Positions 33,059 to 62,528 of a stretch of 64,000 nt of DNA are shown piece after piece. Source of the stretch: Pseudomonadales bacterium (GTDB lineage Bacteria; Pseudomonadota; Gammaproteobacteria; Pseudomonadales; Azotimanducaceae); NCBI GenBank assembly GCA_012103505.1, contig WLWP01000001.1, positions 2,356,001-2,420,000 of the forward strand, written 5' to 3'. Numbering within the stretch: position 1 is the first letter of the stretch; the number at the start of each line of letters is the position of its first letter. The position numbers and the translations under genes were made by a program. The notes under the pieces were generated by a model. The model saw nothing but the letters and a program-made list of their open reading frames with translations, was not told the DNA's origin and searched no databases.

Positions 33059-33862
33059 ATGGCAGACCGACTAACAGGCAAAGTGGCCCTTATTACAGGT
33101 GGCACCAGTGGTATTGGAGCCGCAACAGCAGAGCTGTTCGTGGCCGAAGGCGCCCAGGTTGCAATCGCTGGTCGTTCTGAAGAAAAAGGTCAGGCTTTGG
33201 CTGACGCCCTCGGCGACAAGGCAATCTACCTCAAGTGTGATGTCACCCAAGAAGCCGATATTGCCGCAACAGTCGCTGCCGCGAACGACGCATTCGGCCG
33301 CCTCGATATCTTGTTTAACAATGCCGGTGGACCCGTAGGTGCGCCCATCGACAAACTCAGCCAGGACCATATCGACTACGGGGTAAAATTATTGCTTTCA
33401 AGTGCAATTCTCGGCACGCGTTATGCGATCGAGCCGATGAAGGCCAGTGGTGGCGGTGTCATTATCAATAACTCAAGCGTTGCGGCGCTCCGTTATCGTC
33501 AGGGCGATATTCTCTATTCATCTTTGAAAGCTGGTGTCACACACTTCACGAAGATGGCTGGCATTGAGCTTGCACCACATAACATCCGAGTGAACTGCAT
33601 CTCTCCAGGGGCAATCGCCACACCGATTTTTTACGGCGGCTCCGGTCGGGCGAACACCCTGACGGATGAGGAAAACGCGCAGAAGATGGAAAAGCTCAAG
33701 AGCAACCTCGCGAAAGCCGTACCACTCAAGCAAACAGGCCTAGCATCCGATATCGCCGAAGCCGCGCTTTACCTCTCGAGTGATGCGGGCCGCTTCGTAA
33801 ATTGTCATGACCTCGTGGTCGACGCGGGCAGAACCTCTATGTTCTACGAGCCGAACGACTAG
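33059..33862 (+). CDS. SDR family oxidoreductase (classical)
   Basis: A 267-residue short-chain dehydrogenase. Cofactor loop GGTSGIGAA near residues 14-22, NNAGG near residue 89, catalytic Ser in NNSSVAAL and YSSLK near residues 152-156. Reversibly oxidises a secondary alcohol with NAD(P). AAGGACAG precedes the ATG. Its 3' end overlaps the convergent MFS gene by 26 bp. Substrate unknown. Confidence 0.92.
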   Translation: MADRLTGKVALITGGTSGIGAATAELFVAEGAQVAIAGRSEEKGQALADALGDKAIYLKCDVTQEADIAATVAAANDAFGRLDILFNNAGGPVGAPIDKLSQDHIDYGVKLLLSSAILGTRYAIEPMKASGGGVIINNSSVAALRYRQGDILYSSLKAGVTHFTKMAGIELAPHNIRVNCISPGAIATPIFYGGSGRANTLTDEENAQKMEKLKSNLAKAVPLKQTGLASDIAEAALYLSSDAGRFVNCHDLVVDAGRTSMFYEPND

Positions 33863-36171: not shown

Positions 36172-37359
36172 TTAGGCCGCCGCCTCGACTCGCGCTTCTG
36201 GCCACAGACGTAAGAAGTTCTCGCTATAAAACTTCGTCTTCACATCTTCACTCGCTGTTTCAAGTGTTCGCTCAAAACGACCGATCGGATCCTTGGTACC
36301 CTCAATGTGGGGGTAGTCACTTGAAAAGAGGTATAGATCTTCATTTGATTCATTGATCATCCGACCCACGTCTTCGTTTGGCATCGGCGTGAAGCCCATC
36401 TGGTGTGAGAGCTGTTCTGTTGGCGTGCGATCGAATCGAACGGACTCATCATTACGGGCAAAAATCCGGCAAACGTCGTCAAGGCGCCGGAGCATGCCTG
36501 GTACCCAGCCAGCACCTAACTCAACAGCTGCGCCATTTAGCTCAGGATGTCGATGGAAGACACCGTCGATGACCATCATGCTCAGAAACATTTCTGGTGC
36601 TTGATGCAGGACAGCCGCATCTTTCGTGCGCACATTTTCACCGCCACCCAACCAATCTTTGGACGCTTTGCGACCGTTGTTACCCCAAGACTTGTGTACC
36701 TGTAACGGCGCCCCACCAACATGCAAAACAAACGGCACACCAGCTTCGGCAAGGCGAGCCCAAAACGGATCAAAATCTATGTGTCCAGGGGCTCGGTCGA
36801 TGGGCGATCTGTGCGGAATCCAGATCGCTTCCAAACCTTGATTAAGACACCACTCCAACTCTTTTATCGCGAGCTCTGGGTCATCCAATGCAACAGCACC
36901 GACGCCCATCAATCGATCATCGGGCTGGCAAAACTCAGACATGTGGCGATTGTGGCCGCGAGCGGCGCCATAGCGAATTTTCGGATCCGTCTTTGAGCTC
37001 GGGTGAAACGCAGTGACAAGGCTATGTGTTGCAAACACCAGCTGCTTTTTAAAGCCGAGCAAGTCCATCGCTTGGGTGCGATCTCCACTATTAAATGCAC
37101 CAAGTGCTTGGATCTCCTTACTTTTCGCGATCAGCTCGTCACCCATAGCCAGCTGTGTGGCGACGTGTTCGTCGCTGTGCTTACCACCCTGCTCCATGAT
37201 TACGGCCACTTCTTCATCCGTGACAATCGAAGCGCTATAACTCACTTCAGGTATATCGTCTCGCACATCCGGATCAGCATAGGAAGTGACGAAGTCGGGC
37301 AACTCCATCACGTGACTGTCCGCATCGTAATATGGACGATCATTGGGTGCATAAGCCAT
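36172..37359 (-). CDS. Amidohydrolase family protein (ACMSD-like, PF04909)
   Basis: A 395-residue TIM-barrel amidohydrolase. DADSHVMELPDF at the N-terminus carries the metal-binding H of this family, VLHVGGAPL near residue 210 the second metal His, and FSSDYPHIEGT near residue 350 the last Asp and His. The family includes decarboxylases and hydrolases acting on ring-derived acids. Divergent from the SDR at 37457. Confidence 0.88.
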   Translation of the reverse strand: MAYAPNDRPYYDADSHVMELPDFVTSYADPDVRDDIPEVSYSASIVTDEEVAVIMEQGGKHSDEHVATQLAMGDELIAKSKEIQALGAFNSGDRTQAMDLLGFKKQLVFATHSLVTAFHPSSKTDPKIRYGAARGHNRHMSEFCQPDDRLMGVGAVALDDPELAIKELEWCLNQGLEAIWIPHRSPIDRAPGHIDFDPFWARLAEAGVPFVLHVGGAPLQVHKSWGNNGRKASKDWLGGGENVRTKDAAVLHQAPEMFLSMMVIDGVFHRHPELNGAAVELGAGWVPGMLRRLDDVCRIFARNDESVRFDRTPTEQLSHQMGFTPMPNEDVGRMINESNEDLYLFSSDYPHIEGTKDPIGRFERTLETASEDVKTKFYSENFLRLWPEARVEAAA

Positions 37360-39544: not shown

Positions 39545-40525
39545 ATGACGAAGGTCATTGTCTTGCCTGGATTGACTCTCAACAAAGTAACCGACGACGA
39601 CATCGAACGCATACGTGCATCTGGAGGACCTGGAACTGAGGTTGTGGTGTGCAACTTCGCAGAAAACCCTGACCACGCGAAGCAGGAAGCCGCAGACGCA
39701 GATGTCATTCTTGGCATCGTGCCACCGGAGTTATTCGCAGCCGCACCGAAGTTAAGATGGGTACAGTCAATTTCTTCCGGGGTCGACTCTTTCATGTACC
39801 CCGAGTTCATTAATAACCCTGTCGTCTTGACGAGCGAGAAAGGATTGGTTGGTGAACATTTAGCCGATCATGGCTTTGGCTTGCTGCTGATGCTTACGCG
39901 CCAACTGGCGAGTGCAAGAGATCTCGGTCCAGATGCTTGGAATCATCGTCCTGCACTTAGGGCCCAAGAAATCGAACTTACTGGGGCAACGATGGCCATT
40001 ATCGGCCTCGGCGGAACTGGTCGTGCCATGGCTCGGCGCGCGCTCGCTTTCGGCATGAACATAGTAGCAATTGACCGCGATACGGTCGCGCCCATGGACG
40101 GCGTGACGCTACACGTTAGGTCAGATCATCTCCATGAAATTCTGTCTCAGGCAGACGTCGTCTCTATCTGCTGTCCCTTAACCACAAAGACTGACAAGCT
40201 AATCAACGCGTCAACAATCGCGCAAATGAAAGAAGGTGCCCTTCTAATCAACGTTACCCGAGGCGAGGTCATTGATGAAGACGATGTTGTTGCTGCGCTC
40301 AAATCTGGACACATCAGGGGGGCCGGTCTCGATGTCGCCCCGCGAGAGCCTTTGCCACCCGACAGTGAACTGTGGACGCTAGAAAACGTCGTCATGACCC
40401 CACATACTGCGGGCGCTAGTCAATTTCGCGCTGGCAGGAATTTGGATCGATTTGTCGAGAACCTGCAAAAATTCGTGAACAATGAGCCCTTGGATGGGGT
40501 CATCGACAAAACACTTGGGTATTGA
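39545..40525 (+). CDS. D-2-hydroxyacid dehydrogenase (NAD-dependent)
   Basis: A 326-residue protein. The Rossmann loop is GLGGTGRAMA near residue 156, VNVTRGEVIDEDD near residue 238 holds the catalytic Arg, and MTPHTAGAS near residue 288 the catalytic His. It oxidises 2-hydroxy acids or reduces 2-oxo acids. CGGGGACGCAG precedes the ATG. First gene of the plus-strand run that leads to the reductive-dehalogenase-like gene. Confidence 0.9.
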   Translation: MTKVIVLPGLTLNKVTDDDIERIRASGGPGTEVVVCNFAENPDHAKQEAADADVILGIVPPELFAAAPKLRWVQSISSGVDSFMYPEFINNPVVLTSEKGLVGEHLADHGFGLLLMLTRQLASARDLGPDAWNHRPALRAQEIELTGATMAIIGLGGTGRAMARRALAFGMNIVAIDRDTVAPMDGVTLHVRSDHLHEILSQADVVSICCPLTTKTDKLINASTIAQMKEGALLINVTRGEVIDEDDVVAALKSGHIRGAGLDVAPREPLPPDSELWTLENVVMTPHTAGASQFRAGRNLDRFVENLQKFVNNEPLDGVIDKTLGY

Positions 40526-40586: not shown

Positions 40587-41417
40587 ATGCGATTAGAAGG
40601 AAAAGTGGCAGCAATTACAGGCGCCGCAAGTGGTTTTGGCGAAGCGGCAGCACGTTTGTTCGTTGCGCAAGGCGCGAAGGTAGTCTTAGGAGACATTCAG
40701 GAAGACCGAGGTAGAGAGGTTGCTGACGAATTGGGCGATGTCGCTGTTTTCGTCAAGTGTAATGTCACTGAAGAAGATGATATCGCCAACCTGGTCGACA
40801 CCGCAGTGAGCAGTTTTGGTCGCCTAGATATCATGTACAACAACGCTGGCATCGTGGGTGCGGTCGGTCCCATCGCGACAACACCTGCGGACGAGTGGAA
40901 GTTCACTGTCGATATTTTACTCAATGGCGTGTTCTACGGCTGCAAACACGCAGCTCGCGTGATGACTCCCCAGGGCTCAGGTTCGATTGTCAGCATGGCG
41001 AGCACCGCCGGTATCTTGGGCGGCTTGGGTCCGCACTGCTACACGGCGTGCAAACATGCCGTCGTCGGTTTAACCAAGGGTGTCGCGGCCGAACTGTGTC
41101 ATCACAACATCCGCGTTAACTGTATTGCACCTGCGGGCATGGCAACCGCAATGGTCGCCAATGTCTCCACCGGCGATCACACACAACTCGATAAAACCAA
41201 AGAAATATTGGCCGCAAATTCCCCATTGAAAGGTCGACCTGGACTTGCTGAGGATGTCGCCAATGCCGCTCTATACCTTGCGAGCGATGAATCTGGTTAT
41301 ACAACCGGACACTGTCTGACGACCGATGCGGGCACGACAACCGGCGCGAGCACGAATCCGGTTGCGTTCGCGGAGTATCAGCCTCTGTTTCGTGAGGCGG
41401 GCAAGAAAGGCTTATAG
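40587..41417 (+). CDS. SDR family oxidoreductase
   Basis: A 276-residue classical SDR. GAASGFGEA near residue 12, NNAGI near residue 86, Ser in SMASTAG and YTACK near residues 152-156. An earlier in-frame ATG at 40482 overlaps the dehydrogenase gene and lacks an SD; AAAGGGA precedes 40587. Acts on an alcohol or ketone with NAD(P). Lies 61 bp after the hydroxyacid dehydrogenase. Confidence 0.92.
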   Translation: MRLEGKVAAITGAASGFGEAAARLFVAQGAKVVLGDIQEDRGREVADELGDVAVFVKCNVTEEDDIANLVDTAVSSFGRLDIMYNNAGIVGAVGPIATTPADEWKFTVDILLNGVFYGCKHAARVMTPQGSGSIVSMASTAGILGGLGPHCYTACKHAVVGLTKGVAAELCHHNIRVNCIAPAGMATAMVANVSTGDHTQLDKTKEILAANSPLKGRPGLAEDVANAALYLASDESGYTTGHCLTTDAGTTTGASTNPVAFAEYQPLFREAGKKGL

Positions 41418-41472
41418 AGAGGACGACAAAGATTCGCTAAGATCGACAACCCATAACGCACAGAGATATAAC

Positions 41473-42102
41473 GTGGCAGAAGCGACCCAACATTCAAATG
41501 ACGAGGCAGATACTGCCGAGCAGGAAGAAACCGTAGAACCCGGTTTAACCGGCATGTTGTTACGCGATATCGCAATAGCTTTCGCCGCACTCTCGCTCTG
41601 GGCTGCAGCTGATGCATGGTATCAAGTTACCGGACTGTGGTTCGCCCAGATGCTAGCCGTAGGGGACGCCTTGTTGGTCGGTCTGCTACTGGCAGCGTTA
41701 TTCCACGAATGGGGACACTACTCTGGGGCACGCGCATCGGGCGCAACCGTCTGTCGCAAAGCACCAGAGGGATTTTCCCTCCTTCGTTTTGACTTCGACT
41801 ACTCCGGCAATGATCACCGGCAATTTCATTGGATGACTTACGGCGGTCACATCCTCCATTGGTCGATACTATTATTGCTTGTGATTGCGTTGCCACTCGA
41901 TTCGCTTAGTCGCATAGCACTTGTTGGCAGCGTCTTCGGCTTTGTAGTGTTTGCGACTTTCATCGAATACAACATCGTTAAAGATACTTGGGCAGGCGCA
42001 GATCCCGGCGAGCGATTGAGTCAGATCACGCCTAAAGATTTTCAACAAGCCACAATGATTGGTGGCTTGGGCGGATTATTCGCCATCGCTGCACTGGCAT
42101 AA
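41473..42102 (+). CDS. HEXXH-containing multi-pass membrane protein (M50-like metalloprotease?)
   Basis: A 209-residue protein starting at GTG 41473. About five hydrophobic helices are visible. HEWGH at residues 78-82 lies at the end of a helix and looks like the zinc motif of site-2-type (M50) proteases, but I see no clear NPDG motif; a Glu in the segment IEYNIVKDTWAGADPGER could be a third ligand. The protein may be an intramembrane protease or a metal-binding membrane protein. Seven bases separate it from the reductive-dehalogenase-like gene, so they are almost surely cotranscribed. Confidence 0.72.
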   Translation: MAEATQHSNDEADTAEQEETVEPGLTGMLLRDIAIAFAALSLWAAADAWYQVTGLWFAQMLAVGDALLVGLLLAALFHEWGHYSGARASGATVCRKAPEGFSLLRFDFDYSGNDHRQFHWMTYGGHILHWSILLLLVIALPLDSLSRIALVGSVFGFVVFATFIEYNIVKDTWAGADPGERLSQITPKDFQQATMIGGLGGLFAIAALA

Positions 42103-42109
42103 ACTAGAG

Positions 42110-44266
42110 ATGCTTTCCCGACTCCACCGCGATGCTGGACACGCACGTGGAGTCGAATTAGGACCCTACCCGCTCGAAGCGCTTGGCCAAGGTGCTGAAT
42201 TCGCGATTCGAGAACGCGTTGCACCGCGCCAGACTCCGCACGCACCGGATGATTCAACTCTCGCGCAGACTGCAAGCTGGTATGCCAATCTTTTTCTAGA
42301 TTGCGCACAACAGGAGTCGGCTCCAGAGTCTGAAGGCAGCACTGATCCTGTGATTCGGGCGAAAGAGGTCAAAGGTGCGGCGTATTACCTAGATGCCGCA
42401 CACGTTGGCATCTGCAGGATCCCTGATTTCGCAACTGACGATGCACATTTCGTAGGCCGCTACGCGACCGTTATCCTCGTGGCGTACGGCCGTGATATAG
42501 GGACGCAAAACCTAGCCCATGAATGGATTGATGGCGCGAGCCATGCGATCGCTCAAATGCGTGGTCACGAAATCGGTGTATCCGTGATGGGACACATTCG
42601 CGCGTTGGGGTTCGAAGCCTCAATTCACACGGAAGGCAGCAACACAGTTAGCCTTGAAAGTTTGGCGTCACTTGCAGGCATCGTACAAATCAAGCATGGA
42701 GAAATCGAAAGTCCCTTCGTTGGCAAACAATTTTCTTTAGTCGCAATCAGCACAAACTACCAAATGGACTGCGACAAGCCTCTCGACCCAAGTACCACAG
42801 TTCCTCAATTGAAATACTGGCTGGGCATTAACGGTGCGGTAAGTGGTCGTGAGCGCAACCGGCGAGCCAAAAGACCCCCTCACTACAGCCGCTATCCGAT
42901 GGAACAAGTGACCCGAGTCGATGTACCCACTACCAAAATCTACGCTGACGAAGTACCGCGCGTTCCTAAACGGGCAGAGTTTTTCATGCGTGCCAGGATG
43001 GGTGATCTAGGCGACAAAGCCCAACGAGAAGTACAGCGGTTTGCCTTTAAGCACCCGCTGACCAACGGCATGATGTACCCGCTTCGGGCCATGGTTCCGC
43101 ACCAGGACGGGGATACCGAACAGGACACAGAGTCGAACCTCACCGATCCAGCGGTCAATACGGAAGCTATCAAAGCGCTTAGCTACCATTTAGGGGCAGA
43201 TTTAACCGGCATCTGCGAAATACCACGCTATGCCTGGTATTCACACGGTCCAACCGGCGAGCCGTATGAGATGAAGCATCGCTATGCAGTCGTCATGCTG
43301 ATCGATCAAGGTTACGACACCATGGAAGGTGCATCCGGCGACGATTGGATCTCAGGTTGCCAATCCATGCGTGGTTATATTCGAGGTGCAGAAATTGCAG
43401 GCGTCATGGCCGACTTCTTACGCAAACTAGGGCATGACTCCCGTCCGCAGACCAACGCCGATAGTCAGGTTTTACAGATTCCTTTGGTCTTACAAGCGGG
43501 TCTTGGCGAGTTGAGTCGAATCGGCGAGCTGGTACTAAACCCCTATGTTGGCCCACGCTTCAAGTCAGTTGTCTTAACCACCAATCTACCGCTTGTTCCT
43601 GACCAACCTATTGACTTTGGATTACAAGAATTTTGCGGTAACTGCTTAAAATGCGCGCGGGAATGCCCGGTTAATGCCATCCCCTTCGGCGACAAGGTCA
43701 TGTTCAATGGCTACGAAATTTGGAAACCTGACGTCGAACGATGCACCCGCTATCGCGTTACCAACCCAAAAGGATCGGCATGCGGCCGCTGCATGAAAAC
43801 TTGTCCGCTGAACAAGGTCGTCAGTTCCGATGGTGCGTTTATCCACCGAATTGGGACCTGGCTTGGTGTCAACGCTAGGCCACTGAAACGATTGCTTGTA
43901 CCCATAGCGGTCAGGTGGGACGACAAGCTTGGTTATGGCACTCGCAACCCAATCAAGCGCTGGTGGCAAGATCTCGAAATCGTTGACGGCATCGCAAGAA
44001 AACCAAAAGCGACCAACGAACGGGATCTCGACGTCAACGCAGATACAAGTGGCGCTAAATCACCAGTCGGTTACTACCACGCCGCCGATAACCCACCACC
44101 AAACACCAAGGTCCCAGTCGTGGCCAACCACAAAGAGGCGATTGCGCGCGCCGCTTACGTAGAAACTCCAGCTCAAGCCGCCCAAAGGCACACCGTCGGG
44201 ACAACCCCACCAGAGCACTACACACCAACACCATCGATTCCAGTAACAGATATAACGGATGAGTGA
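42110..44266 (+). CDS. Reductive-dehalogenase-like protein with two 4Fe-4S motifs and internal duplication
   Basis: A 718-residue protein. The C-terminal part has AGLGELSRIGELVLNPYVGPR followed by DQPIDFG, then CGNCLKCARECP (Cys509, 512, 515, 519) and Cys545 with CGRCMKTCP (558, 561, 565), the arrangement of corrinoid reductive dehalogenases. Residues about 95-250 resemble residues about 345-490 (shared pattern AxxYYLxAAHVGICRIPDFA / ALSYHLGADLTGICEIPRYA), so the cobalamin module seems duplicated, as in catabolic RdhA. No Tat signal and no C-terminal flavin/2Fe-2S reductase domain are present. QueG-like function is less likely. The ATG 42110 sits 7 bp after the upstream stop. Confidence 0.8.
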   Translation: MLSRLHRDAGHARGVELGPYPLEALGQGAEFAIRERVAPRQTPHAPDDSTLAQTASWYANLFLDCAQQESAPESEGSTDPVIRAKEVKGAAYYLDAAHVGICRIPDFATDDAHFVGRYATVILVAYGRDIGTQNLAHEWIDGASHAIAQMRGHEIGVSVMGHIRALGFEASIHTEGSNTVSLESLASLAGIVQIKHGEIESPFVGKQFSLVAISTNYQMDCDKPLDPSTTVPQLKYWLGINGAVSGRERNRRAKRPPHYSRYPMEQVTRVDVPTTKIYADEVPRVPKRAEFFMRARMGDLGDKAQREVQRFAFKHPLTNGMMYPLRAMVPHQDGDTEQDTESNLTDPAVNTEAIKALSYHLGADLTGICEIPRYAWYSHGPTGEPYEMKHRYAVVMLIDQGYDTMEGASGDDWISGCQSMRGYIRGAEIAGVMADFLRKLGHDSRPQTNADSQVLQIPLVLQAGLGELSRIGELVLNPYVGPRFKSVVLTTNLPLVPDQPIDFGLQEFCGNCLKCARECPVNAIPFGDKVMFNGYEIWKPDVERCTRYRVTNPKGSACGRCMKTCPLNKVVSSDGAFIHRIGTWLGVNARPLKRLLVPIAVRWDDKLGYGTRNPIKRWWQDLEIVDGIARKPKATNERDLDVNADTSGAKSPVGYYHAADNPPPNTKVPVVANHKEAIARAAYVETPAQAAQRHTVGTTPPEHYTPTPSIPVTDITDE

Positions 44267-44474
44267 TTTTTTACAGCTGGCTTGGCGTGCGGACGTACGT
44301 CAGCGAGCTCTAAAGGTTGCAGGGGTTGTAGGCACGATACTGGTCGCCATTAACCAGGGAGATGCAATTTTGGCTGGTAGCCTCAGCACCACTCAATTAT
44401 TACAAATTGGACTCACGTACTGCGTGCCCTACTGTGTTTCGAGCTATTCAAGCGTCAAGGCCATCGGACCCTGA
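44259..44474 (+). CDS. nrtS: NrtS-like nitrate/nitrite transporter (small membrane protein)
   Basis: A 71-residue protein with two hydrophobic helices. RALKVAGVVGTILVAINQGDAIL and LTYCVPYCVSSYSSV match NrtS, a short nitrate/nitrite transporter described from cyanobacteria and other marine bacteria, thought to work as an oligomer. Its start overlaps the reductive-dehalogenase-like gene by 8 bp. No nitrate reductase is present in the window, so the physiological reason for this position is unclear. Confidence 0.78.
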   Translation: MSDFLQLAWRADVRQRALKVAGVVGTILVAINQGDAILAGSLSTTQLLQIGLTYCVPYCVSSYSSVKAIGP

Positions 44475-44525
44475 CTAGGTAGCGCTAACGCCTTATTTTA
44501 ACTCGCTGCGTTCAGAGGCGGATAC

Positions 44526-45251
44526 ATGCTAACTATGCCTACGGTTTCTTACGAGATGATGCTCTTCGCCTTCATACCGAGCGTTGCAGTTTTCATCTTT
44601 ATGCGTTCTTGGTCACTCAATGTCGGCCAAGCGATGTGGGCAAACGCGCGCATGTTCATTCAACTAATTGCAGTTGGTTACGTGTTGACGTTCGTATTCG
44701 AAACCAACAACCCAATACTGGTCTGCGTGATCGTTGTTCTCATGATCGTGATCGCGACAGCCATCGCTATCCGCCCCCTAAAAGAAAAAAGCTCCCGCCG
44801 CTATCTGATCGCGCTCGCCGCTCTCGCGATCCCAGGCATGATTATTTTAGCGATCGTTACCCAACTCGTTGTTGATTTACCACGCTGGTTCGAACCACGC
44901 TTTGTCGTTCCCATCGCTGGTATGATCTTTGCCAATGCCATGAACACGGTAAGTCTTGCCGCGGAGCGATACGAAGCTGAACTTGGGCGTGCCCAACCCT
45001 ACGAGCATGCCCGCAACATCGCCATGGACGCGGCAATGATTCCGCAGATCAACGCACTACTCGCAGTCGGTCTTGTCTCACTGCCCGGGATGATGACCGG
45101 CCAGATATTGTCCGGCGTTGAACCGCTTGTTGCCGTCAAATATCAAATCGTTGTCATGTGTATGATCTTTAGCTCCGCTGGGCTGGGCGCCATTGTCTAT
45201 CTCATTGGTATGGCTTCCCAAGCAAAGAGACCGTCACCAGCCTCGACATAG
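44526..45251 (+). CDS. fetB: FetB-like ABC-type permease (UPF0014), without its ATPase
   Basis: A 241-residue protein with about seven hydrophobic helices. ARMFIQLIAVGYVLTFVFE near residue 38 and LVSLPGMMTGQILSGVEPLVAVKYQ near residue 183 are typical of FetB/YbbM, the permease of a FetAB exporter linked to iron homeostasis. The ATPase partner FetA, usually adjacent, is not encoded in this window. GAGGCGG precedes the ATG. It may pair with an ATPase encoded elsewhere. Confidence 0.85.
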   Translation: MLTMPTVSYEMMLFAFIPSVAVFIFMRSWSLNVGQAMWANARMFIQLIAVGYVLTFVFETNNPILVCVIVVLMIVIATAIAIRPLKEKSSRRYLIALAALAIPGMIILAIVTQLVVDLPRWFEPRFVVPIAGMIFANAMNTVSLAAERYEAELGRAQPYEHARNIAMDAAMIPQINALLAVGLVSLPGMMTGQILSGVEPLVAVKYQIVVMCMIFSSAGLGAIVYLIGMASQAKRPSPAST

Positions 45252-45253
45252 AG

Positions 45254-45280
45254 ACGGTCCAGAAACGGTCCAGAAACGGA
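45254..45280. repeat. 11-bp tandem repeat, about 2.5 copies, after fetB
   Basis: ACGGTCCAGAA occurs twice plus a partial copy, starting 3 bp after the fetB stop. It belongs to the same class of gene-end repeats seen at several places in the window. Confidence 0.8.
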
Positions 45281-45361: not shown

Positions 45362-46090
45362 ATGTCTGCACCCATCGATCTGCCTAAAGTGCTTACGCCT
45401 GACCTCGAGGCATCACTCAACACTTTGGCGACAGCGACGCTCACCCATCAGCTCCATCAACGCGGTATTCGAACTACTTTCCTACCCGGGCTGAAACCAC
45501 TGCAACCCGAACAACGTATGGTTGGTCGTGCCCGAACACTGCGCTATGTCGCCCTACGCGAAGATCAGCAGCGCACTTATCAATCTGGCATCAACGCACA
45601 GAAACGCCTGGTCGAATCTACTGAAGAAGGAGACGTTCTCGTCATGGAGGCGCGTGGTGTAGCTGAAGCAGCAACCATTGGCGATATTTTCGCTACACGC
45701 CACTTTGTGCTTGGCGGTCGCGGGATCGTCACTGACGGCGCATTACGTGACACGCCCGCAATCGCTGCAATCGGCAAACCCGTTTATCACTTCGCCTCGC
45801 ACGGAGCCGTTTTAGGTCGCAAGCACATGCCGTTCTCGACAGACGAGCCGATCACTTGTGCCGGTGTTTTCGTGGTCCCTGGAGACGTCGTGGTAGGAGA
45901 TGGCGAGGGTGTCGTTATCATTCCGATGGACCTAGTCGAAGAAGTCGTACAAGACGCACTCATTCAAGAAGAGAAAGAGGATTTCGCACTAGAGCGTGTT
46001 GCCGCAGGTGAACCCACGATCGGACTCTTCCCGCTTTCGAAGGAACGCACCCCAGACTTCGAAGCGTGGCGCGACGCAAGAAAATCTTAA
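45362..46090 (+). CDS. RraA-like family protein (HMG/CHA aldolase fold)
   Basis: A 242-residue protein. The metal-site segment GGRGIVTDGALRDTPAIAAIG near residue 118 contains the D-x-x-x-R-D arrangement of RraA and of 4-hydroxy-4-methyl-2-oxoglutarate aldolases. Aldolase members split the last intermediate of aromatic meta-cleavage routes to pyruvate. The protein is longer than RraA (~160), so aldolase or decarboxylase activity is favoured over RNase regulation. Followed 9 bp later by a RidA gene. Confidence 0.85.
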   Translation: MSAPIDLPKVLTPDLEASLNTLATATLTHQLHQRGIRTTFLPGLKPLQPEQRMVGRARTLRYVALREDQQRTYQSGINAQKRLVESTEEGDVLVMEARGVAEAATIGDIFATRHFVLGGRGIVTDGALRDTPAIAAIGKPVYHFASHGAVLGRKHMPFSTDEPITCAGVFVVPGDVVVGDGEGVVIIPMDLVEEVVQDALIQEEKEDFALERVAAGEPTIGLFPLSKERTPDFEAWRDARKS

Positions 46091-46099
46091 GGACAACAT

Positions 46100-46474
46100 A
46101 TGAGCTCACGAAGAAGCATAGAAATTGAAGGGTTATCCCATCTGACGGCGATTCCAGTCGCCTCACGCATTGGTCCACTCCTTGTATCCTCCGTTGTCGC
46201 CCCTTTCAATCCAGGCACCCGCGACGTTCCTGACACCATCGAAGATCAGTACGCCAACATCTTCCGCCACGTTGGACTCATGCTCGAAGAAGCAGGTGCT
46301 AATTGGTCTCATATCGCCAAAATGGAATTTTGGACACCGACCGCCGATCGCGGCATCTTAGATCCGTTCTGGTTGGAAAAATTTCCAGATCCGAAGTCCC
46401 GTCCTGCACGCCATACGCACGTTGGGCAAGGGCAGTCAGCCAGGGCCTCGTTCATCGCATTTATCGAAGACTAA
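46100..46474 (+). CDS. RidA/YjgF family protein
   Basis: A 124-residue protein of the Rid superfamily, which hydrolyses reactive enamine/imine intermediates. The pattern GPLLVSSVVAPFNPGT at the N-terminus and KMEFWTPTADRG in the middle fit. The usual Arg of classical RidA (near position 105) appears to be in RPARHTHVG. AAGGACA precedes the ATG. Likely cotranscribed with the RraA-like gene; ends 1 bp before the convergent dioxygenase gene. Confidence 0.85.
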   Translation: MSSRRSIEIEGLSHLTAIPVASRIGPLLVSSVVAPFNPGTRDVPDTIEDQYANIFRHVGLMLEEAGANWSHIAKMEFWTPTADRGILDPFWLEKFPDPKSRPARHTHVGQGQSARASFIAFIED

Positions 46475-46475
46475 C

Positions 46476-47345
46476 TTAAGACCTATTAAACTCGTGACCA
46501 TATGTGTCGCGCGTGTAGTACTCAGATTGGTGCGTTGCCGGACGTCCCGCGTAACCAATTTCAATCTGCCACCCAGACGGTGTTGTGAAATAGAACGAAA
46601 ACATATGATCGTTGGCGTGCTTACCTAGAGAGACTTGCACGGGATACTGGCTCGCTTGCACCAGTTCATGTGTCATGAAGACATCGTCTAGGTTATCCAC
46701 TTCAATCATCAGGTGATTGATCCGTTTCTTGCTCGGCAAGCCAAAAGCGACCGTATGATCCCGCGAGTTACAGTGCATAAACAGTACATCCGCCACTCCA
46801 CCGTCTGGCAACGGAAACTTGTATTCTACGCTCCCACGCATTCCCAACATACGATAAAACTCATAAGTCTGATCTAGGCCAGCGTGTTTCAGAATCATGT
46901 GGCCAGCACCACCATCGCCAGTAACAAATTTGCCAAACATTCGGCGGCTCGGATAGAAAGGTTTATGGGCATCGACTTGCGGGCCATGAAAAATCTCCAG
47001 CGGATTACCTGCTGGATCTTCCAACGTAACAAGATCCAGAACGCGTCTTTGCGCAGCCAATTCTTGGTTACCAGCTTCGAAAGGGACGTTGGCCGTTCTC
47101 AGCAGTCCCTGTATTTGCTCAAATTCATCTACTCCGGCAACTCTAAACCCTGCCGTTAGAAGGTCATCAGAGGCATCCTCCACCAGCTCAAAACGATGGT
47201 GATGGTCATCACTCCGAACAAACAGACTCCCCTCTTCCTCTTTGAACACCTCGAGACCAATCAATGTCTCAATCATCTCCTGCCACTCAGCCAGATCGGA
47301 GACCCCGAACCGCACGTAACCTAGTTCTGTGATGCCGCAGTCCAT
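46476..47345 (-). CDS. Extradiol ring-cleavage dioxygenase (type I, BphC-like, VOC fold)
   Basis: A 289-residue two-domain VOC protein. The first domain is at residues 1-120, the second 145-275. The iron ligands are expected at the His of GHMILK near residue 147, the His of NHLMIEV near 212 and the Glu of WQIEIGY near 262; YYTRDTYGHEF near the C-terminus is typical of BphC-like enzymes. It should cleave a catechol-like ring next to the diol. A perfect SD (AGGAGGTGAG) precedes the ATG. Follows an alpha/beta hydrolase gene as in meta-cleavage routes. Confidence 0.9.
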   Translation of the reverse strand: MDCGITELGYVRFGVSDLAEWQEMIETLIGLEVFKEEEGSLFVRSDDHHHRFELVEDASDDLLTAGFRVAGVDEFEQIQGLLRTANVPFEAGNQELAAQRRVLDLVTLEDPAGNPLEIFHGPQVDAHKPFYPSRRMFGKFVTGDGGAGHMILKHAGLDQTYEFYRMLGMRGSVEYKFPLPDGGVADVLFMHCNSRDHTVAFGLPSKKRINHLMIEVDNLDDVFMTHELVQASQYPVQVSLGKHANDHMFSFYFTTPSGWQIEIGYAGRPATHQSEYYTRDTYGHEFNRS

Positions 47346-51573: not shown

Positions 51574-52602
51574 TTACGAAGTACCAATACTCAATAAATT
51601 GTCTACGGGCGTGTAGAGCGCTTCCATATAGTCCATGTCTGCCTGATCGATCACGATTTCCGTAGAATCGACCAACTCATCTAGCTGTTCAATCTTCGAA
51701 ACCCCAACGATAGGCGCCGTTACCTCAGCCTTGTTAATAAGCCAGGCCAATGCAATCTGCGCAGGTCGTTTACCGTATTTTTCTGCAACCTCAACCACTC
51801 GATCTGCCACTGGGAAAACGTGCTCACCGTGATAGAGACTCTCGGTTCGCTTCCGGTCCGCGCCCTGAGAACGGTTGGTACTCCCCCCTGCAAAGCCACC
51901 CTGGTAGGCGCCGGTCAATATGCCACGCGCCAAAGGCGACCAAGGCATCAACGCCACGCCGCTTTGTGCACAATAGGGATTCATTTCCCGTTCCTCTTCG
52001 CGGTAAACCAAGTTGTAGTGGTTTTGCATCGAGATAAACTTCGTCCAACCGTTGATTTCAGCCGTCATTTGCAACTCAGCGAACTGCCACGCAAACATTG
52101 ACGACCCACCTAAGTAGAGCACCTTGCCTGCCTTGACCATGTCGTGCAGCGCTTCCATCGTCTCTTCTATTGGCGGTTTTGCCGCACTTGGAATTCCATG
52201 CGGATGCCTGTGTATGACGAGATGGTCGATGTAGTCCAGGCCAAGACGTTTGAGGCTGGCATCCACGCCTTCGATAACGTGTTTGCGGCTCAAACCACCA
52301 GAGTTAGCACCTCGACCCATCGGCATCGAGATCTTTGTGGCCAGAACAAACTCATCACGAGGTAAGAGCTCACGCAAAAGTGCACCGACCACCTCTTCCG
52401 ACGCACCTTGTCCGTAGATATCTGCGCAATCAAAGTAGAACAGTCCCTTATCCAACGCTGCCTTGAAAATCGGCCGAGCCTGATCGATATCTAAAGTCCA
52501 ATCACCCTGATGACCCCGGCCTGGAATACCAAAATTCATTGTGCCTAGGCATAGTTGCGAGGCACGGAGGCCACTTCTCCCCAATTGAACGGGCTTTAAC
52601 AT
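51574..52602 (-). CDS. Aldo/keto reductase
   Basis: A 342-residue TIM-barrel oxidoreductase. DCADIYGQGASEEVVGALL near residue 60 holds the catalytic Asp and Tyr, the Lys is in FVLATKISMP near residue 90 and the His in HLVIHRHPHG near residue 130. Reduces aldehydes or ketones with NADPH. Divergent from the Rieske oxygenase gene. Confidence 0.92.
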   Translation of the reverse strand: MLKPVQLGRSGLRASQLCLGTMNFGIPGRGHQGDWTLDIDQARPIFKAALDKGLFYFDCADIYGQGASEEVVGALLRELLPRDEFVLATKISMPMGRGANSGGLSRKHVIEGVDASLKRLGLDYIDHLVIHRHPHGIPSAAKPPIEETMEALHDMVKAGKVLYLGGSSMFAWQFAELQMTAEINGWTKFISMQNHYNLVYREEEREMNPYCAQSGVALMPWSPLARGILTGAYQGGFAGGSTNRSQGADRKRTESLYHGEHVFPVADRVVEVAEKYGKRPAQIALAWLINKAEVTAPIVGVSKIEQLDELVDSTEIVIDQADMDYMEALYTPVDNLLSIGTS

Positions 52603-52632: not shown

Positions 52633-52731
52633 CGTATAAAAACCAATGTTAGAGCTTGGGGCACCAAAGGGCCACGATTTGGCCAACGTTGTTTTGTCTC
52701 GTGCCACTTGAAGATAGAAAAGAGGGAATAC

Positions 52732-54111
52732 ATGTCTTTGGATATCTACCAGCCATCTGACCCATCACTCGCACCGGGTGAAGCACGGTGCCCAGGTCCG
52801 AGCGCACAAGACATCATCGCCCGTGATGGCGACCAACCCCCAGCGCCACTGCTGGCAAGCGCGTACGAGTACCTCGGCAATGACGACATTTCCTGGTCGC
52901 GATACACCTCCCAGGCTTTCCACGACCTAGAAATGGAAAAGATGTGGACCAAAACATGGCAATGGGCTTGTCGCGAAGAACACATACCAAATCCAGGCGA
53001 CTACTACGTCTACGACATCGGTCCTTTCTCCGTGATCGTGATTCGCGGAGACGATGACCAGATTCGCGCGTTCGCCAATTCCTGCCCCCATCGAGGCATG
53101 CAGTTTTGTAACTCAGGCGAGCAAGGTAGCGGTAAACAATTTATTCGCTGTCCATTTCACGGCATGTCCTGGCATCTGGACGGCTCGTTACGTGAAATCC
53201 CTTGTCGTTGGGACTTTCCACACATCGACGAGCAGAACTTCAAATTGATAGAAGTGCCCAGTGACTCTTGGGGTGGGTTCGTTTTCATCAATCTCGATCG
53301 CGAAGCTCAAGCTTTGGAAGACTACTTGGAAGTCCTGCCTGAGCACTTCGCCAATTGGCCGCTAGAAGATCGCTACGTTGTGCTGCACACCGAAAAGGTT
53401 TTGCCCGGGAATTGGAAGATGTGCATGGAAGGTTTTATGGAAGCCTTCCATGTATTGGCTACGCATCCTGAAGGCCTGCGCGGTTCTAGCTGGGCGAATA
53501 CGCAATACGATTTGTTTAGCCCCCACGTTTCCCGCTTTTTACAAAACCTATCCAGCGGCAATCCACATTTTGAGCGCGATTACACCGAACAGGAGCTGTT
53601 CGAATTTTTGGGTCACCCTGACGAAACTCTCCCGGAAGACAAAACCGCACGACAAGCACACGCAGACGGACTGCGTGAAAGCTTAGGCGCCGCGATGGAT
53701 GTTGACCTGACCGGCGTATCGAACTCGGAATTGCTCGACAGCATCGAGTACCACGTTTTTCCCAATGCCTGCTTTTTCCCCGGCGTTGTTATCCCTCTTA
53801 TCTACCGCTTCCGTCCGCTAGGCGTCGATAAGTGCATACACGACATCATGATGTTGCAGCCGATCCCCGAGAACGGCGAGCGGCCTGAACCGGCTCCCAG
53901 GGAGCGTCTTGCTATCGACGAGCCATACGTGTCACTTGAGTCTTTTAAAACTAATCGCTTGAGCTATGTGCTAGATCAAGACACTGACAATTTTGAGCGG
54001 CAATGGGCTGGCATCAACGCGTCATTGAAAGGGGCGCAAACTTTAGGCAACTATCAAGAAGCGCGTATTCGACATTTCCACAATACGCTTGATACCTATC
54101 TTTCGGCGTGA
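52732..54111 (+). CDS. Aromatic ring-hydroxylating (Rieske) oxygenase, alpha subunit
   Basis: A 459-residue protein. The Rieske cluster ligands are Cys118-His120 (CPH) and Cys140-His143 (CPFH). The mononuclear iron site lies in EGFMEAFHVLATHPEG near residues 235-250. It would add one or two oxygen atoms to a ring or an alicyclic compound with electrons from a reductase not seen here. GAGGGAA precedes the ATG. A beta-subunit-like NTF2 protein is encoded 7 bp downstream, but a separate reductase and ferredoxin are absent from the window. Confidence 0.93.
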   Translation: MSLDIYQPSDPSLAPGEARCPGPSAQDIIARDGDQPPAPLLASAYEYLGNDDISWSRYTSQAFHDLEMEKMWTKTWQWACREEHIPNPGDYYVYDIGPFSVIVIRGDDDQIRAFANSCPHRGMQFCNSGEQGSGKQFIRCPFHGMSWHLDGSLREIPCRWDFPHIDEQNFKLIEVPSDSWGGFVFINLDREAQALEDYLEVLPEHFANWPLEDRYVVLHTEKVLPGNWKMCMEGFMEAFHVLATHPEGLRGSSWANTQYDLFSPHVSRFLQNLSSGNPHFERDYTEQELFEFLGHPDETLPEDKTARQAHADGLRESLGAAMDVDLTGVSNSELLDSIEYHVFPNACFFPGVVIPLIYRFRPLGVDKCIHDIMMLQPIPENGERPEPAPRERLAIDEPYVSLESFKTNRLSYVLDQDTDNFERQWAGINASLKGAQTLGNYQEARIRHFHNTLDTYLSA

Positions 54112-54674: not shown

Positions 54675-55355
54675 ATGTACACGCTCTATATCGGCAACAA
54701 AAACTACTCTTCCTGGTCACTTCGGCCGTGGCTTCTACTCACAGAATTACAAATTCCATTTACCGAAGAACTCGTCCCTTTCGACGACGATTCAAGTTAT
54801 GAAAAATTTAGGACTTTTTCTCCATCGGGATTAGTGCCCTGTCTGATAGACCGCGACGAAACCATCTGGGAATCTCTCGCCATCGTCGAATATCTGGCAG
54901 AACGCCACTCGACGATCTGGCCCTACAGTCAGCAAGCCCGAGCCTGGGCGCGATCTGCGACCGCCGAGATGCACGCAGGGTTTAGCAACATCCGTAACGA
55001 CTGTCCCATGACTGTGGGATTGAGGATACGGCTACACTCTCAGTCTGAGGGATTAGTCCATGACATCGCACGCCTAGCAGAGCTCTGGCGACAAGGACTA
55101 ACACGCTTCGGTGGACCTTACTTGGCTGGCAGTCGTTTCACCGCGGTGGATGCCTTTTTTGCGCCGGTTGTATTTCGAATACAGACGTATGGGCTTGAAG
55201 TACCTGCAGATTGCCGTAGCTATGTTGACCTCATGTTGAAGCTTCCTGGCATGTCGTCTTGGAGTGATGCAGCACTCGCCGAATCTTTCCGAGAACCGTC
55301 GCACGAGGATGAAATTCATGCGCTGGGAGCATGGTTGCAGGACTATCGAGCTTGA
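54675..55355 (+). CDS. Glutathione S-transferase
   Basis: A 226-residue protein. The N-terminal thioredoxin fold starts LYIGNKNYSSWSLRPWLLL, with Ser in the glutathione-activating position, and a helical C-terminal domain follows. In ring-degradation clusters, GSTs often isomerise or dehalogenate intermediates. GGAG precedes the ATG. It overlaps the start of the flavin monooxygenase gene. Confidence 0.88.
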   Translation: MYTLYIGNKNYSSWSLRPWLLLTELQIPFTEELVPFDDDSSYEKFRTFSPSGLVPCLIDRDETIWESLAIVEYLAERHSTIWPYSQQARAWARSATAEMHAGFSNIRNDCPMTVGLRIRLHSQSEGLVHDIARLAELWRQGLTRFGGPYLAGSRFTAVDAFFAPVVFRIQTYGLEVPADCRSYVDLMLKLPGMSSWSDAALAESFREPSHEDEIHALGAWLQDYRA

Positions 55356-56845
55356 GCGCGCAGCAGCGCGTAGCCTTGGTTGGCGCCGGTATAGCGGGCA
55401 TGTGCAGTGCTTTGGCCTTATCGCGCAAAGGTTTTTCGGTCGATGTATTCGAACGAGACATTCCACCACCTGACGGTGGCGCCGATCGCGCATTTTTTGA
55501 CTGGAATCGACGTGGCGCTGCACAGTTTCGCCATCCGCACGCTTTCCTCGGTCTCATGTGTAGCCTCTTGGAAGAGCACTACCCTGATCTCTTAGATGAC
55601 TTCTTTGCTGCCGGTGCGCGTAAAGTGTCATTTGATCAAATGGTGCCACCACATCTGCAAGATCAATATCGCCCAGAGGCAGGTGATGAAAAGATGTGGG
55701 TGCTCATGTGCCGTCGAGCAACGATGGAAACGATTTTCCGACGTTACGTCGAAAAACAAGACAACATACGCATCGTCAACACAACCTATGTAACAGGAAT
55801 TCAAACAGAACAGCGCAATGATCAAGTCGCAATAACTGGCCTCGAGCTTACAGACCGTATTGCAGGGAACCAAAAATCTATCTTTCAGGCTGACATTTAC
55901 GTCGACGCAACGGGCCGGGCGAGCAAGTTCGGTCAATGGCTTACCGCGGCCGGTGCCGTCATCGAAGAGGAGCGGGAAGACGCAGAAATTGTCTACTACA
56001 CTCGCCACTATCAGTTAAAGCCTGGTGTTGACGAGCCTGACCGTCATAAAGAGGACCCATCAGCTGGTGACGTCGGCTACATGAAGTACGGTGTCTTCCC
56101 TGGGGATAGCGGTCACTTTGCTCTGATCATCTGCCTCCCCAACGCTGAAACCGAATTACGCGAAGCCGTCAAAGACGAGGATCGATTCGACGCCATTTGT
56201 ATGCAGATACCAGGCCTTGTGCCATGGATCTCGAAAGATAGAGCGGAACCGACAACGCCATCATTTGGTATTGGCGAGATCCATGCTGTGTGGCGCTCCT
56301 TTATCAAAGATGATCAACCACAAGTACTCAATTTCTTTGCTGTTGGCGATGCCAGCGCTCGTACCAACCCTCTCTATGGAAGGGGTTGTAGTACCGGAAT
56401 TCTGCACGCCCACATACTAGCGGACACACTAAGCACCCGCACCGATCCTATAGCTCGCGCCGTCGAATTTCAGAAGCAAACCGTAGAACAAATACGACCT
56501 ATCTACGATGCCAGTCTGAGGGAGGACAAGAACGGAATTCGGCGTGCCGATGTGGTAATGAAGGGTGGGGAGCGAGACCGAGCTGGTTCACTCAAGAAGT
56601 GGTTTGGATTTGCATTTGGCGATGCCTTAGCGGCTGCAGCGCGATACGAGATCCACGTGTTCAGAGGACTAATGCGCACTGTTAACCTCGTAGAAAAACC
56701 CGGTGCGTTTTTGGAAGATTCGAAAATCAGGCGGACGGTTTTCCGATACATGCTGAAAGGTAGAAAGAAAAACGGTCAAGCGCGAGTCCAACGCGGGCCT
56801 AACCGGCAGGAAATGTTGGCCTCTCTGTTATCCGACCAGGAGTAG
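55331..56845 (+). CDS. FAD-dependent monooxygenase-like oxidoreductase
   Basis: A 504-residue flavoprotein. The FAD loop is VALVGAGIAGMCSALAL near residues 14-30, YVDATGRASKFGQWL near residue 195 and NFFAVGDASARTNPLYGRG near residue 335 are second and third FAD contacts, as in class A flavin hydroxylases. No membrane segments. The ATG 55331 overlaps the GST gene by 25 bp; a TTG at 55352 is an alternative. It hydroxylates or dehalogenates a ring substrate; exact reaction unknown. Confidence 0.85.
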   Translation: MVAGLSSLSAQQRVALVGAGIAGMCSALALSRKGFSVDVFERDIPPPDGGADRAFFDWNRRGAAQFRHPHAFLGLMCSLLEEHYPDLLDDFFAAGARKVSFDQMVPPHLQDQYRPEAGDEKMWVLMCRRATMETIFRRYVEKQDNIRIVNTTYVTGIQTEQRNDQVAITGLELTDRIAGNQKSIFQADIYVDATGRASKFGQWLTAAGAVIEEEREDAEIVYYTRHYQLKPGVDEPDRHKEDPSAGDVGYMKYGVFPGDSGHFALIICLPNAETELREAVKDEDRFDAICMQIPGLVPWISKDRAEPTTPSFGIGEIHAVWRSFIKDDQPQVLNFFAVGDASARTNPLYGRGCSTGILHAHILADTLSTRTDPIARAVEFQKQTVEQIRPIYDASLREDKNGIRRADVVMKGGERDRAGSLKKWFGFAFGDALAAAARYEIHVFRGLMRTVNLVEKPGAFLEDSKIRRTVFRYMLKGRKKNGQARVQRGPNRQEMLASLLSDQE

Positions 56846-57978: not shown

Positions 57979-58781
57979 ATGAAAGATCTACAAAATTTAT
58001 TCTCAGTCGAAGGCAAGGTCGTGGTCGTGACAGGCGGATCACGCGGTATAGGTGAAATGATTGCCGCCGGTTTCTTGGCAAACGGCGCAAAAGTCTACAT
58101 CAGCTCTCGCAAGGCTGATGCGTGTGATGCAGCAGCAGAACGGTTGCAGAAGGAAATTGGTGGCGAGTGCACTCTATACCAGCTGATATGTCTAAATTGG
58201 ACGGGATCAAAAACTTCTGTGCCGAGTTTAAGTCGCGTGAAGACAAATTGGACGTGCTTATTAATAACGCCGGTGTAGCTTGGGGGGCACCGCTTGAAGA
58301 GTTCCCAGAAGCCGGTTGGGACAAGGTGATGGACACTAACGTGAAAGGACCGTTCTTTCTCACCCAACAGCTACTCTCTCACCTTGAAGCAGCAACCACG
58401 TTTGAAGAGCCCGCTCGCGTTATCAATGTAGGTTCGATAGATGGCATCAAGACGCCTGTCTTCGATAATTTTTCCTACGGTCCTTCAAAAGCCGCCATTC
58501 ATCATATGACCCGAGTGCTCGCTGCGCATTTGATCAAACGAAACATCATCGTCAACGGGATCGCACCCGGCCCATTCCCAACCTGGATGCTCTCTACTGG
58601 CGTTGGTGGTGGCGGCGATACTGAAAACACTGATTGGGATGCTGTTGGCAAAAGCAATCCACGAGGGCGGGTAGGCTCAGCTCCCGACATCGCAGGCCTC
58701 GCCATCTTTTTGGCTTCGAAGGCGAGCGGCTTCACCGTCGGTGAAATCATTACCTGTGACGGCGGCTCGGTGGTCTCCTAG
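57979..58781 (+). pseudogene. SDR family oxidoreductase, frameshifted
   Basis: The N-terminal half (57979 to about 58170) holds GGSRGIGEM near residue 17. The C-terminal half (from about 58170, other frame) has NNAGV, NVGSIDG and YGPSK. Codons read to GEC and then need one extra base at 58168-58172 to continue with HSIPADMSKLDG, a smooth SDR sequence. Joined, the protein is about 267 residues, the normal length. A single base is missing, so this is either a real loss of function or a sequencing/assembly error. AGGAGG precedes the ATG. Confidence 0.88.
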
Positions 58782-60936: not shown

Positions 60937-61743
60937 TTATTTTTGCGCGTACATCGCGATTAGTTTGTAATCGCGACGCCACAGATCAATATCTCCGCAC
61001 ACATCTTCCCGCAAGTGCCGCAACAAGCTCTGCACACCACGATCAAACTCAACCATGTCACTATGTTCGCGCGACACTTCATCTCGGCTCGATATCTTAG
61101 ACGCCATTTCGAGTAACAGTTCCACGTCCGCTCGCTCGCCAGGAAAACGTTGCCACGTAGAGGCTAAAAAGGCGGAATAGATATAGAGCACTTCGCAAGG
61201 CCCAAAACCTGGGACAAGCCTCGTATCCAGCTCGCTCCCAGACACGAGTCTTGTGTCAGAAAAATGTGCGCTACCTTGACTCAAGTCTGGCAGCATTCGC
61301 CCTGCAGGACGGGTCTCTATCTCCACATTGGGATGGTCACTAGACACGGCAAAAAATTGCTTACCTCCGCCTCGACCGGCGCTAATAATAATCTCGTCAC
61401 AGTTAGCACTAGCCGCGACCCATGTTTTGCTACCATTAATAACCGGACCATCCTTGGATGCCTGCCAAGTAACCCCCGGCAAAGGATCATTCTCGCTGCG
61501 GTCTTCAGACACAGCAAACGCCGCCCATCCGGTAAATTTCTCTTCCGGGAAAATGTGCCGAATCGCACCTTGATAACCAGCGATGAAAACCCAGGCAAAC
61601 CGATCTGCTAGGGCACCCCCAACGACCGACATCGCAAAGGGAGACAGTTCTGCACATTGCTCGAGCCAAATCAGTTTGTAAGCCGCCTCGTCAGCAACCG
61701 GATCACTCGCCTCCACAGCTCCTAGCAGTTCAACGGGGTGCAT
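60937..61743 (-). CDS. Short acyl-CoA dehydrogenase-like protein
   Basis: A 268-residue protein. GWAAFAVSEDRSENDP near residue 72 and VINGSKTWVAAS near residue 100 are the flavin/substrate contacts of acyl-CoA dehydrogenases, and SQGSAHFSDTRL near 155 ends the middle domain. Classical enzymes are ~380 residues, so most of the C-terminal helical domain seems missing or diverged. It may be inactive, act with another subunit, or be a relic. The ATG overlaps the TauD-type gene by 14 bp. Confidence 0.7.
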   Translation of the reverse strand: MHPVELLGAVEASDPVADEAAYKLIWLEQCAELSPFAMSVVGGALADRFAWVFIAGYQGAIRHIFPEEKFTGWAAFAVSEDRSENDPLPGVTWQASKDGPVINGSKTWVAASANCDEIIISAGRGGGKQFFAVSSDHPNVEIETRPAGRMLPDLSQGSAHFSDTRLVSGSELDTRLVPGFGPCEVLYIYSAFLASTWQRFPGERADVELLLEMASKISSRDEVSREHSDMVEFDRGVQSLLRHLREDVCGDIDLWRRDYKLIAMYAQK

Positions 61744-62515: not shown

Positions 62516-62528
62516 CCTTGTCCCCTTA

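Follow-up and report, generated by a model that had tools for sequence, protein, structure and literature searches.

The respiratory RdhA/RdhB reductive dehalogenases (RDases; PceA and others) combine a class III cobalamin fold with two [4Fe-4S] clusters. A second, non-respiratory kind is represented by the crystallised NpRdhA of Nitratireductor pacificus, which has no fused reductase, and by the fused BhbA type, likewise proteobacterial (plasmid pBHB of Comamonas sp. 7D-2; Ruegeria sp. TM1040; JtRdhA, described as a reductase fusion in PMC10463259). PMC13101508 describes Ros_A3X954, a marine Roseobacter debrominase, as a catabolic RDase that lacks a twin-arginine translocation (TAT) signal and acts on 2,6-dibromophenol; it lists nine RDases from beyond Dehalobacter and Desulfitobacterium that are active when expressed heterologously, and RDases of taxa other than these two genera stand in its tree without TAT signals. 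Here we compare with these systems an RdhA gene found in a 64,000-nucleotide (nt) stretch of a Pseudomonadales genome (the window), where it lies between genes for a membrane protein with an HEXXH motif (the HEXXH protein) and a small NrtS family protein. An earlier note on this DNA had proposed that the three genes form one unit and an undescribed reductive system. We consider it quite probable, from sequence comparisons, that the window RdhA is instead an NpRdhA-type enzyme, a catabolic (non-respiratory) reductive dehalogenase of the cytosol, and that it acts on a halophenol-like substrate, feeds an oxygenase-based pathway and is an optional part of its gene cluster, the HEXXH and NrtS proteins not being its subunits.

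The RdhA protein and its relatives

The three genes are all on the plus strand, with 7 nt between HEXXH and RdhA and an 8-nt overlap between RdhA and NrtS; coordinates and profile matches agree with the earlier description of a membrane protein with HEWGH, a two-cluster RdhA-like protein and NrtS in close succession. The HEXXH gene has a GTG start, and HEWGH occupies residues 78-82 of its product. The features are:

41473..42102, + strand: HEXXH membrane protein, 209 amino acids (aa), putative remote M50 relative; HEWGH codons 41704-41718; likely third metal ligand E165
42110..44266, + strand: putative NpRdhA-type catabolic reductive dehalogenase, 718 aa, no fused reductase
43376..43564, + strand: RdhA active-site residues Y423 (codon 43376-43378) to K485 (43562-43564), with R549 beyond them (43754-43756); aligned with NpRdhA Y426, K488 and R552, identical in 35 of 35 sequences
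43634..43804, + strand: eight cysteines of two [4Fe-4S] clusters in RdhA (C509, C512, C515, C519, C545, C558, C561, C565)
44259..44474, + strand: NrtS family small membrane protein, 71 aa (NF038050, 54.2 bits, cut-off 25)

The RdhA protein passes the NCBIfam model TIGR02486 (187.1 bits against a cut-off of 160.35), and each of the eight cysteines is kept in all 35 aligned RdhA sequences, in keeping with the earlier view of an RdhA-type protein with two Fe-S motifs and no RdhB. In a phmmer search its full-length match in the PDB was NpRdhA (residues 13-693 aligned, including the N-terminal half; 612.7 bits, E 9.5e-183), with weaker matches to PceA (108 bits over 188 residues) and QueG (32 bits). 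The best PDB structural match of an AlphaFold2 model made from a 35-row alignment (predicted local distance difference test, pLDDT, 85.1; predicted template modelling score, pTM, 0.91) was 6zxx, again NpRdhA, with template modelling (TM) scores of 0.90/0.92 at 44% identity. Respiratory RDases scored 0.29-0.35 by query length and 0.44-0.53 by target length. Two other identities were tried and rejected. The epoxyqueuosine reductase QueG fits poorly, both by profile (TIGR00276, only 30.7 bits against a cut-off of 200) and by structure (TM 0.17-0.36). A respiratory enzyme is rejected on the low TM scores together with the absence of a TAT signal, no twin-arginine pair being seen in the first 60 residues when the N-terminus was read by eye, and of an adjacent rdhB, no RdhB-like neighbour being recognised around the gene. 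The earlier note had regarded the missing rdhB as unusual; since the tree of PMC13101508 shows RDases of taxa beyond Dehalobacter and Desulfitobacterium to be free of TAT signals, its absence is to be expected.

Twelve pocket positions of NpRdhA, with their catalytic roles, were taken from PMC7565698. Nine of these (F290, F291, F310, S422, M423, Y426, N452, K488 and R552) are the same in the window RdhA, and in the alignment as a whole F291, F310, S422, M423, Y426, K488 and R552 are found in every one of the 35 sequences and N452 in all but one. NpRdhA thus resembles the window protein in length, in the lack of a fused reductase, in its catalytic and phenol-binding residues and in fold (TM about 0.9), but differs in overall sequence, in tree group and at the remaining pocket positions, which are treated below. 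BhbA and TM1040 have longer coding sequences (about 1013 and 1070 aa, against 718), which are 36.8% and 40.4% identical to the window RdhA by tblastn. Ros_A3X954 is similar as a catabolic type without a TAT signal from a marine heterotroph; by its published description rather than by sequence, it is set apart by [4Fe-4S] motifs at residues 283-345 rather than 509-565, so its N-terminal part would be shorter than that of the window RdhA.

A scan of public genome contigs confirmed at least 554 RdhA relatives, of which 80 loci were kept for comparison. A midpoint-rooted tree of 41 rows was built from the window, L032, L034, L035, L037, 34 of the 80 public loci and shortened BhbA and TM1040 sequences, L121 being left out as its row contained a stop. 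Such a tree had been suggested in the earlier note. In it the six RdhA proteins of the genus form a single clade (support 100/99), but the clade does not join the characterised enzymes: together with 23 others it makes up a 29-row group that is split (100/99) from a 10-row group holding NpRdhA, and the fused BhbA and TM1040 proteins take a separate branch. Relatives in the clade of the window RdhA are labelled alpha-, beta- and gammaproteobacteria, and no protein of the 29-row group is known to us to have been assayed. The gene is under purifying selection, as judged from G009 and G031 (nonsynonymous rate dN 0.039, synonymous rate dS 0.315); for pairs that include the window protein, dS is near or past saturation.

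Further RdhA-like sequences were seen in these genomes. The window genome encodes a second RdhA-like protein of 332 aa (L002 1435-2433; G000:C6 near 2683433), which falls below the cut-offs for both the RDase model (108.2 of 160.35 bits) and the QueG model (61.5 of 200 bits). Contig ends of G031 carry more distant RdhA-like stretches (L040, L041) with 29-44% identity to the window protein.

Gene order in the genus and at other RdhA loci

Gene order was compared at 23 loci of the genus (the window, L032-L034, L036-L039, L142-L144, L172, L173, L175, L176, L178-L181 and L183-L186), picked by a match to RdhA, NrtS or HEXXH and drawn from 22 of 37 genus genomes plus G075. L033, L036, L037 and L039 are cut off by contig ends; G019 and G028, with NrtS at a contig end, lie outside the set, and the HEXXH search covered a sample of the order rather than every genus genome. 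The commonest arrangement, at 12 of the 23 loci, is HEXXH adjoining NrtS with no RdhA. At two more (L185 9108-10316, L186 8797-10005) the gene between them encodes a 402-aa Rieske oxygenase, above the Pfam cut-offs for Rieske and Ring_hydroxyl_A; the NrtS proteins of these two loci score 23.3 and 22.1 bits, short of the 25 bits set for the family. The complete HEXXH-RdhA-NrtS order is present at two loci only, the window and G008. HEXXH and RdhA occur without NrtS in G009 and G031, and no NrtS match was found anywhere in either assembly. The other five loci comprise HEXXH and RdhA followed by a contig end (G027); RdhA and NrtS with the HEXXH side beyond the contig (G010); a short-chain dehydrogenase/reductase (SDR) gene, an internally deleted RdhA and NrtS, with no HEXXH (G006); SDR and the start of RdhA at a contig end, with no HEXXH (G030); and SDR and NrtS, lacking both HEXXH and RdhA (G026). 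The G006 remnant is a 211-aa open reading frame (ORF; L038 8709-9344) at the equivalent operon position, which aligns in a single frame to window RdhA residues 5-95 and 604-710; the cobalamin and Fe-S regions are gone.

The full RdhA-free order reads SDR, amidohydrolase, MhpD-like hydratase, HEXXH, NrtS, aldo/keto reductase, flavin adenine dinucleotide (FAD) enzyme, SDR and TauD. It was found at six of the 14 RdhA-free loci that have HEXXH (L144, L172, L175, L176, L178, L179), the others missing at least one of these genes, several of them at contig ends. The window carries the genus-cluster genes other than the hydratase too, over a wider, rearranged stretch.

Among the 80 public RdhA loci, HEXXH is found at one (L042) and NrtS at one (L043), both from genus members. 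Neither was found at the other 78, of which 71 show more than 1 kb of DNA on the HEXXH side (1 kb or less in 7) and 65 on the NrtS side (1 kb or less in 13); one of the 78, L086, a partial match at 71% identity, could itself belong to the genus. Conservation of the trio in related genomes, put forward earlier as a check whose failure would refute the unit, is thus not seen at loci not known to be of the genus. When neighbours were clustered over the 80 loci, no partner family proved to be conserved. Apart from RdhA itself, the largest cluster (8 loci) is an ORF-calling artefact, represented by an 802-aa minus-strand ORF that overlaps the L064 RdhA, and the next largest clusters span five loci. 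A Rieske oxygenase of another kind lies near RdhA at four of the 80 loci and a TauD-type gene at three, including the genus member L042. In the N. pacificus NpRdhA locus (L100) no homologue of the window HEXXH, NrtS or SDR was matched, and a literature search found no paper treating both a reductive dehalogenase and NrtS; the papers listed for NrtS by itself dealt with nitrate transporters of plants or were general ones on cyanobacteria.

These comparisons bear on the proposal that HEXXH, RdhA and NrtS work together as a single reductive system not described before, in which HEXXH would be an anchor in the membrane or a partner for processing or cofactor, and NrtS would carry an anionic substrate or product. 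The genes are tight and partly overlapping both in the window and in G008, whose RdhA proteins are 67% identical, which suggests co-translation. Of the seven genus loci that show the DNA upstream of RdhA, five have HEXXH directly there (window, L032, L033, L034, L037), the exceptions being L038, with its deleted RdhA, and L039, where the RdhA start is at a contig end. Against this stand the loci where HEXXH and NrtS occur together without RdhA or flank a Rieske oxygenase, the RdhA-bearing genomes G009 and G031 without NrtS, and the lack of either partner at public loci besides L042 and L043. We regard a single system as distinctly improbable, and on the same evidence reject NrtS as an RdhA-specific partner. 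Since HEXXH and NrtS occur together in the genus without RdhA and are nearly absent from public RdhA loci, they belong to the genus cluster, of which RdhA is an optional occupant.

Trees of cluster genes bear on how this came about. In an aldo/keto reductase tree of 19 loci, five RdhA loci, the remnant-bearing G006 and the RdhA-free G026 fall on one side (96/95), opposite 12 RdhA-free loci; the RdhA label needs two changes, against a mean of 5.2 when labels are shuffled, and 2 of 500 shuffles were as low. The label changes once in the HEXXH tree, on a weak branch (64/19), once in the FAD enzyme tree (92/89) and twice in the MhpD tree, where 55 of 500 shuffles were as low. Given the aldo/keto reductase tree and the single RdhA clade, one acquisition by the sub-lineage of the window, with later loss in G026 and partial deletion in G006, fits; we infer that the direction of change was gain rather than loss.

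The neighbouring proteins and the wider window

The three genes form the middle part of a run of eight co-directional genes (39545-46474), and catabolic genes are abundant over about 30-63 kb of the window, where amidohydrolases, SDRs, a CoA-transferase, a TonB receptor and a glutathione S-transferase accompany several oxygenases. The other features recognised, of which those from 39545 to 46474 complete the run, are:

33059..33862, + strand: SDR, genus cluster
36172..37359, - strand: amidohydrolase, genus cluster
39545..40525, + strand: D-2-hydroxyacid dehydrogenase family, first gene of the run
40587..41417, + strand: SDR oxidoreductase, the neighbour that tracks RdhA presence most closely
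44526..45251, + strand: UPF0014/FetB-like permease, the next gene after NrtS (186.9 bits to Pfam UPF0014, cut-off 22.6)
45362..46090, + strand: RraA/LigK-like aldolase family
46100..46474, + strand: RidA-like (Ribonuc_L-PSP, 24.7 bits, just below the Pfam cut-off of 27.3)
46476..47345, - strand: extradiol ring-cleavage dioxygenase, BphC-like (TIGR03213, 310.9 bits, below the cut-off of 366.45)
51574..52602, - strand: aldo/keto reductase, conserved marker of the genus cluster
52708..54111, + strand: Rieske ring-hydroxylating oxygenase, alpha subunit
55331..56845, + strand: FAD-dependent oxidoreductase, genus cluster
58167..58781, + strand: SDR, genus cluster
61730..62572, - strand: TauD/TfdA-type dioxygenase, genus cluster

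Among the adjacent genes scanned there was no ATPase partner for the permease. An alpha/beta hydrolase at 47997-48938 (- strand) has macrolide esterases as its best NCBIfam matches (322.3 bits, under the cut-off of 420).

The SDR at 40587-41417 is a better partner candidate for RdhA, on gene order, than either immediate neighbour. A homologue lies upstream of RdhA or its remnant in five of six genus loci with that side visible (window, G008, G027, G006 and G030; not G031). It is also present in the RdhA-free G026, and none at 40% identity or more was listed in the 14 other RdhA-free genus loci. In L044 and L049, the only two of the 80 public loci with a match of at least 45%, it adjoins RdhA in convergent orientation at 72% identity.

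In the HEXXH protein H78, E79, W80 and H82 are invariant among 34 homologues (33 of which have letters at H78), and E165, in a later predicted helix, is kept in 33, with D in the remaining one. An HExxH within a hydrophobic stretch and a later conserved acidic residue are features of the M50 site-2 proteases, but the protein scores below the Pfam cut-off for that family (PF02163, 12.9 bits against 27.2). Ten of 27 family members match M50 at E<=0.1; the single PDB match of the family profile is an RseA/zinc metalloprotease entry (E 0.7, 25 positions), and a fold model from two rows was too poor for use (pLDDT 57.8). The protein may accordingly be placed in a remote M50-like family of putative intramembrane metalloproteins. 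Of 293 genomes sampled across the order, 29 carry the family, most of the 29 not having been searched for RdhA. Around 15 distant homologues no neighbour recurred at more than three loci, which gave no lead on function. Two more homologues lie away from RdhA in the window genome (L154 and L155; G000:C6 1381905 and 1415461).

A transport role for NrtS is predicted from its family assignment, and the link to nitrogen oxides made in the earlier note rests only on the NrtS name. A cluster for a nitro compound or one related to nitrogen oxides, in which NrtS would transport nitrite or nitrate, would accord with that assignment and with the Rieske oxygenases of the cluster; nitroarene dioxygenases release nitrite. 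Among the proteins scanned at 29.1-63.8 kb (a few ORFs there and the 1-29 kb part being unscanned), none matched a family of nitrate reductases, nitrite reductases or nitroreductases, and we think a nitrogen-oxide pathway very unlikely. The HEXXH and NrtS proteins may alternatively be a conserved membrane pair around a position for interchangeable enzymes that remove substituents. Most RdhA-free members inspected have no gene there, one lineage has a Rieske oxygenase and the lineage of the window has RdhA. On this view NrtS would export small leaving anions in general, such as halide or nitrite, and HEXXH would be a membrane metalloprotein of the same pathway. We put this forward tentatively, as possible though rather unlikely; if true, the operon position would work like a socket, in which the opening reaction of a route for breaking down a natural product can be exchanged.

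A probable catabolic dehalogenase in an oxygenase pathway

For the catabolic enzyme that we favour, a reaction course can be modelled on NpRdhA. Electrons would pass from a cellular ferredoxin or flavodoxin through the two [4Fe-4S] clusters to base-off cobalamin, and, with a halogenated phenol bound through its hydroxyl by S419, K485 and R549, cob(I)alamin would attack the halogen. Y423 would give the proton, and halide and the dehalogenated phenol would be released, the latter to be taken up by the aerobic catabolic cluster (Rieske oxygenase, extradiol dioxygenase, TauD-type dioxygenase, SDRs, aldo/keto reductase and aldolase). The RdhA gene would have been inserted once, in the sub-lineage of the window, between the older cluster genes HEXXH and NrtS. 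Sequence is the basis for the RdhA family, for conservation of the cluster ligands and active site and for the gene order in the genus; the substrate class, activity and oxygen tolerance of RdhA are what we would expect of such an enzyme. The oxygenases in the window are in keeping with the earlier suggestion of an aerobic host, and the halogenated natural product proposed with it is a plausible substrate.

Several observations weigh against this reading. The nearest characterised enzyme compared is only 44% identical to the window RdhA, and three pocket positions differ from NpRdhA (K307 to V308, P311 to A312 and A419 to G416), the same changes being seen in all six A1 sequences (five genus members including the window, and G039 from another family). 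With these changes the NpRdhA substrate 3,5-dibromo-4-hydroxybenzoate may not fit the pocket; a halophenol without the carboxylate would be a reasonable candidate. No homologue of the BphC-like or the Rieske enzyme of the window turned up at any of the 80 public RdhA loci, where ORF calls were crude, and the window gave no match to the MhpD-like hydratase that is part of the genus cluster. Support for a single RdhA-bearing side is uneven among the gene trees, and trees rooted at the midpoint do not prove gain over loss; RdhA may instead have been present in the ancestor of the entire genus and then been lost. CobQ was unmatched in the window genome, so cobalamin would have to be imported or scavenged, and the best BtuB-like receptor there scored 253 bits, below the cut-off of 599.7. 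No dedicated electron donor for RdhA was identified.

In nine genomes searched with CobQ as the only marker, it was matched in G026, G030 and G039 but not in G000 (the window genome), G006, G008, G009, G010 or G031. It follows no simple rule: G030 (an RdhA fragment) and G039 (full RdhA) carry both, and G026 has CobQ and no RdhA. The six genomes unmatched for CobQ have RdhA or its remnant, though reductive dehalogenases need cobalamin.

The altered pocket also bears on whether the class III cobalamin fold serves a reaction other than dehalogenation here, such as reductive removal of another ring substituent. The lysine at the pocket entrance (K307) has become valine, and the two further pocket residues are smaller. 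The conserved phenol-binding and proton-donor set of S, Y, K and R, however, serves halophenols in NpRdhA (roles from PMC7565698), and the protein is far from epoxyqueuosine reductase by both measures given above. We therefore hold another reaction to be unlikely.

The kind of enzyme is already known, then, and the unusual part of the locus is the exchangeable position between HEXXH and NrtS. Tight, overlapping genes are commonly taken to encode one machine; here the overlap is no proof of one, because in sister species the same neighbours bracket nothing, a Rieske oxygenase or RdhA. Catabolic reductive dehalogenases allow halogen removal by oxygen-using bacteria, and the window RdhA is a member of a large clade of relatives, its own genomic context offering a testable pathway. 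The exchangeable position is a natural experiment in how degradation clusters acquire a dehalogenation step.

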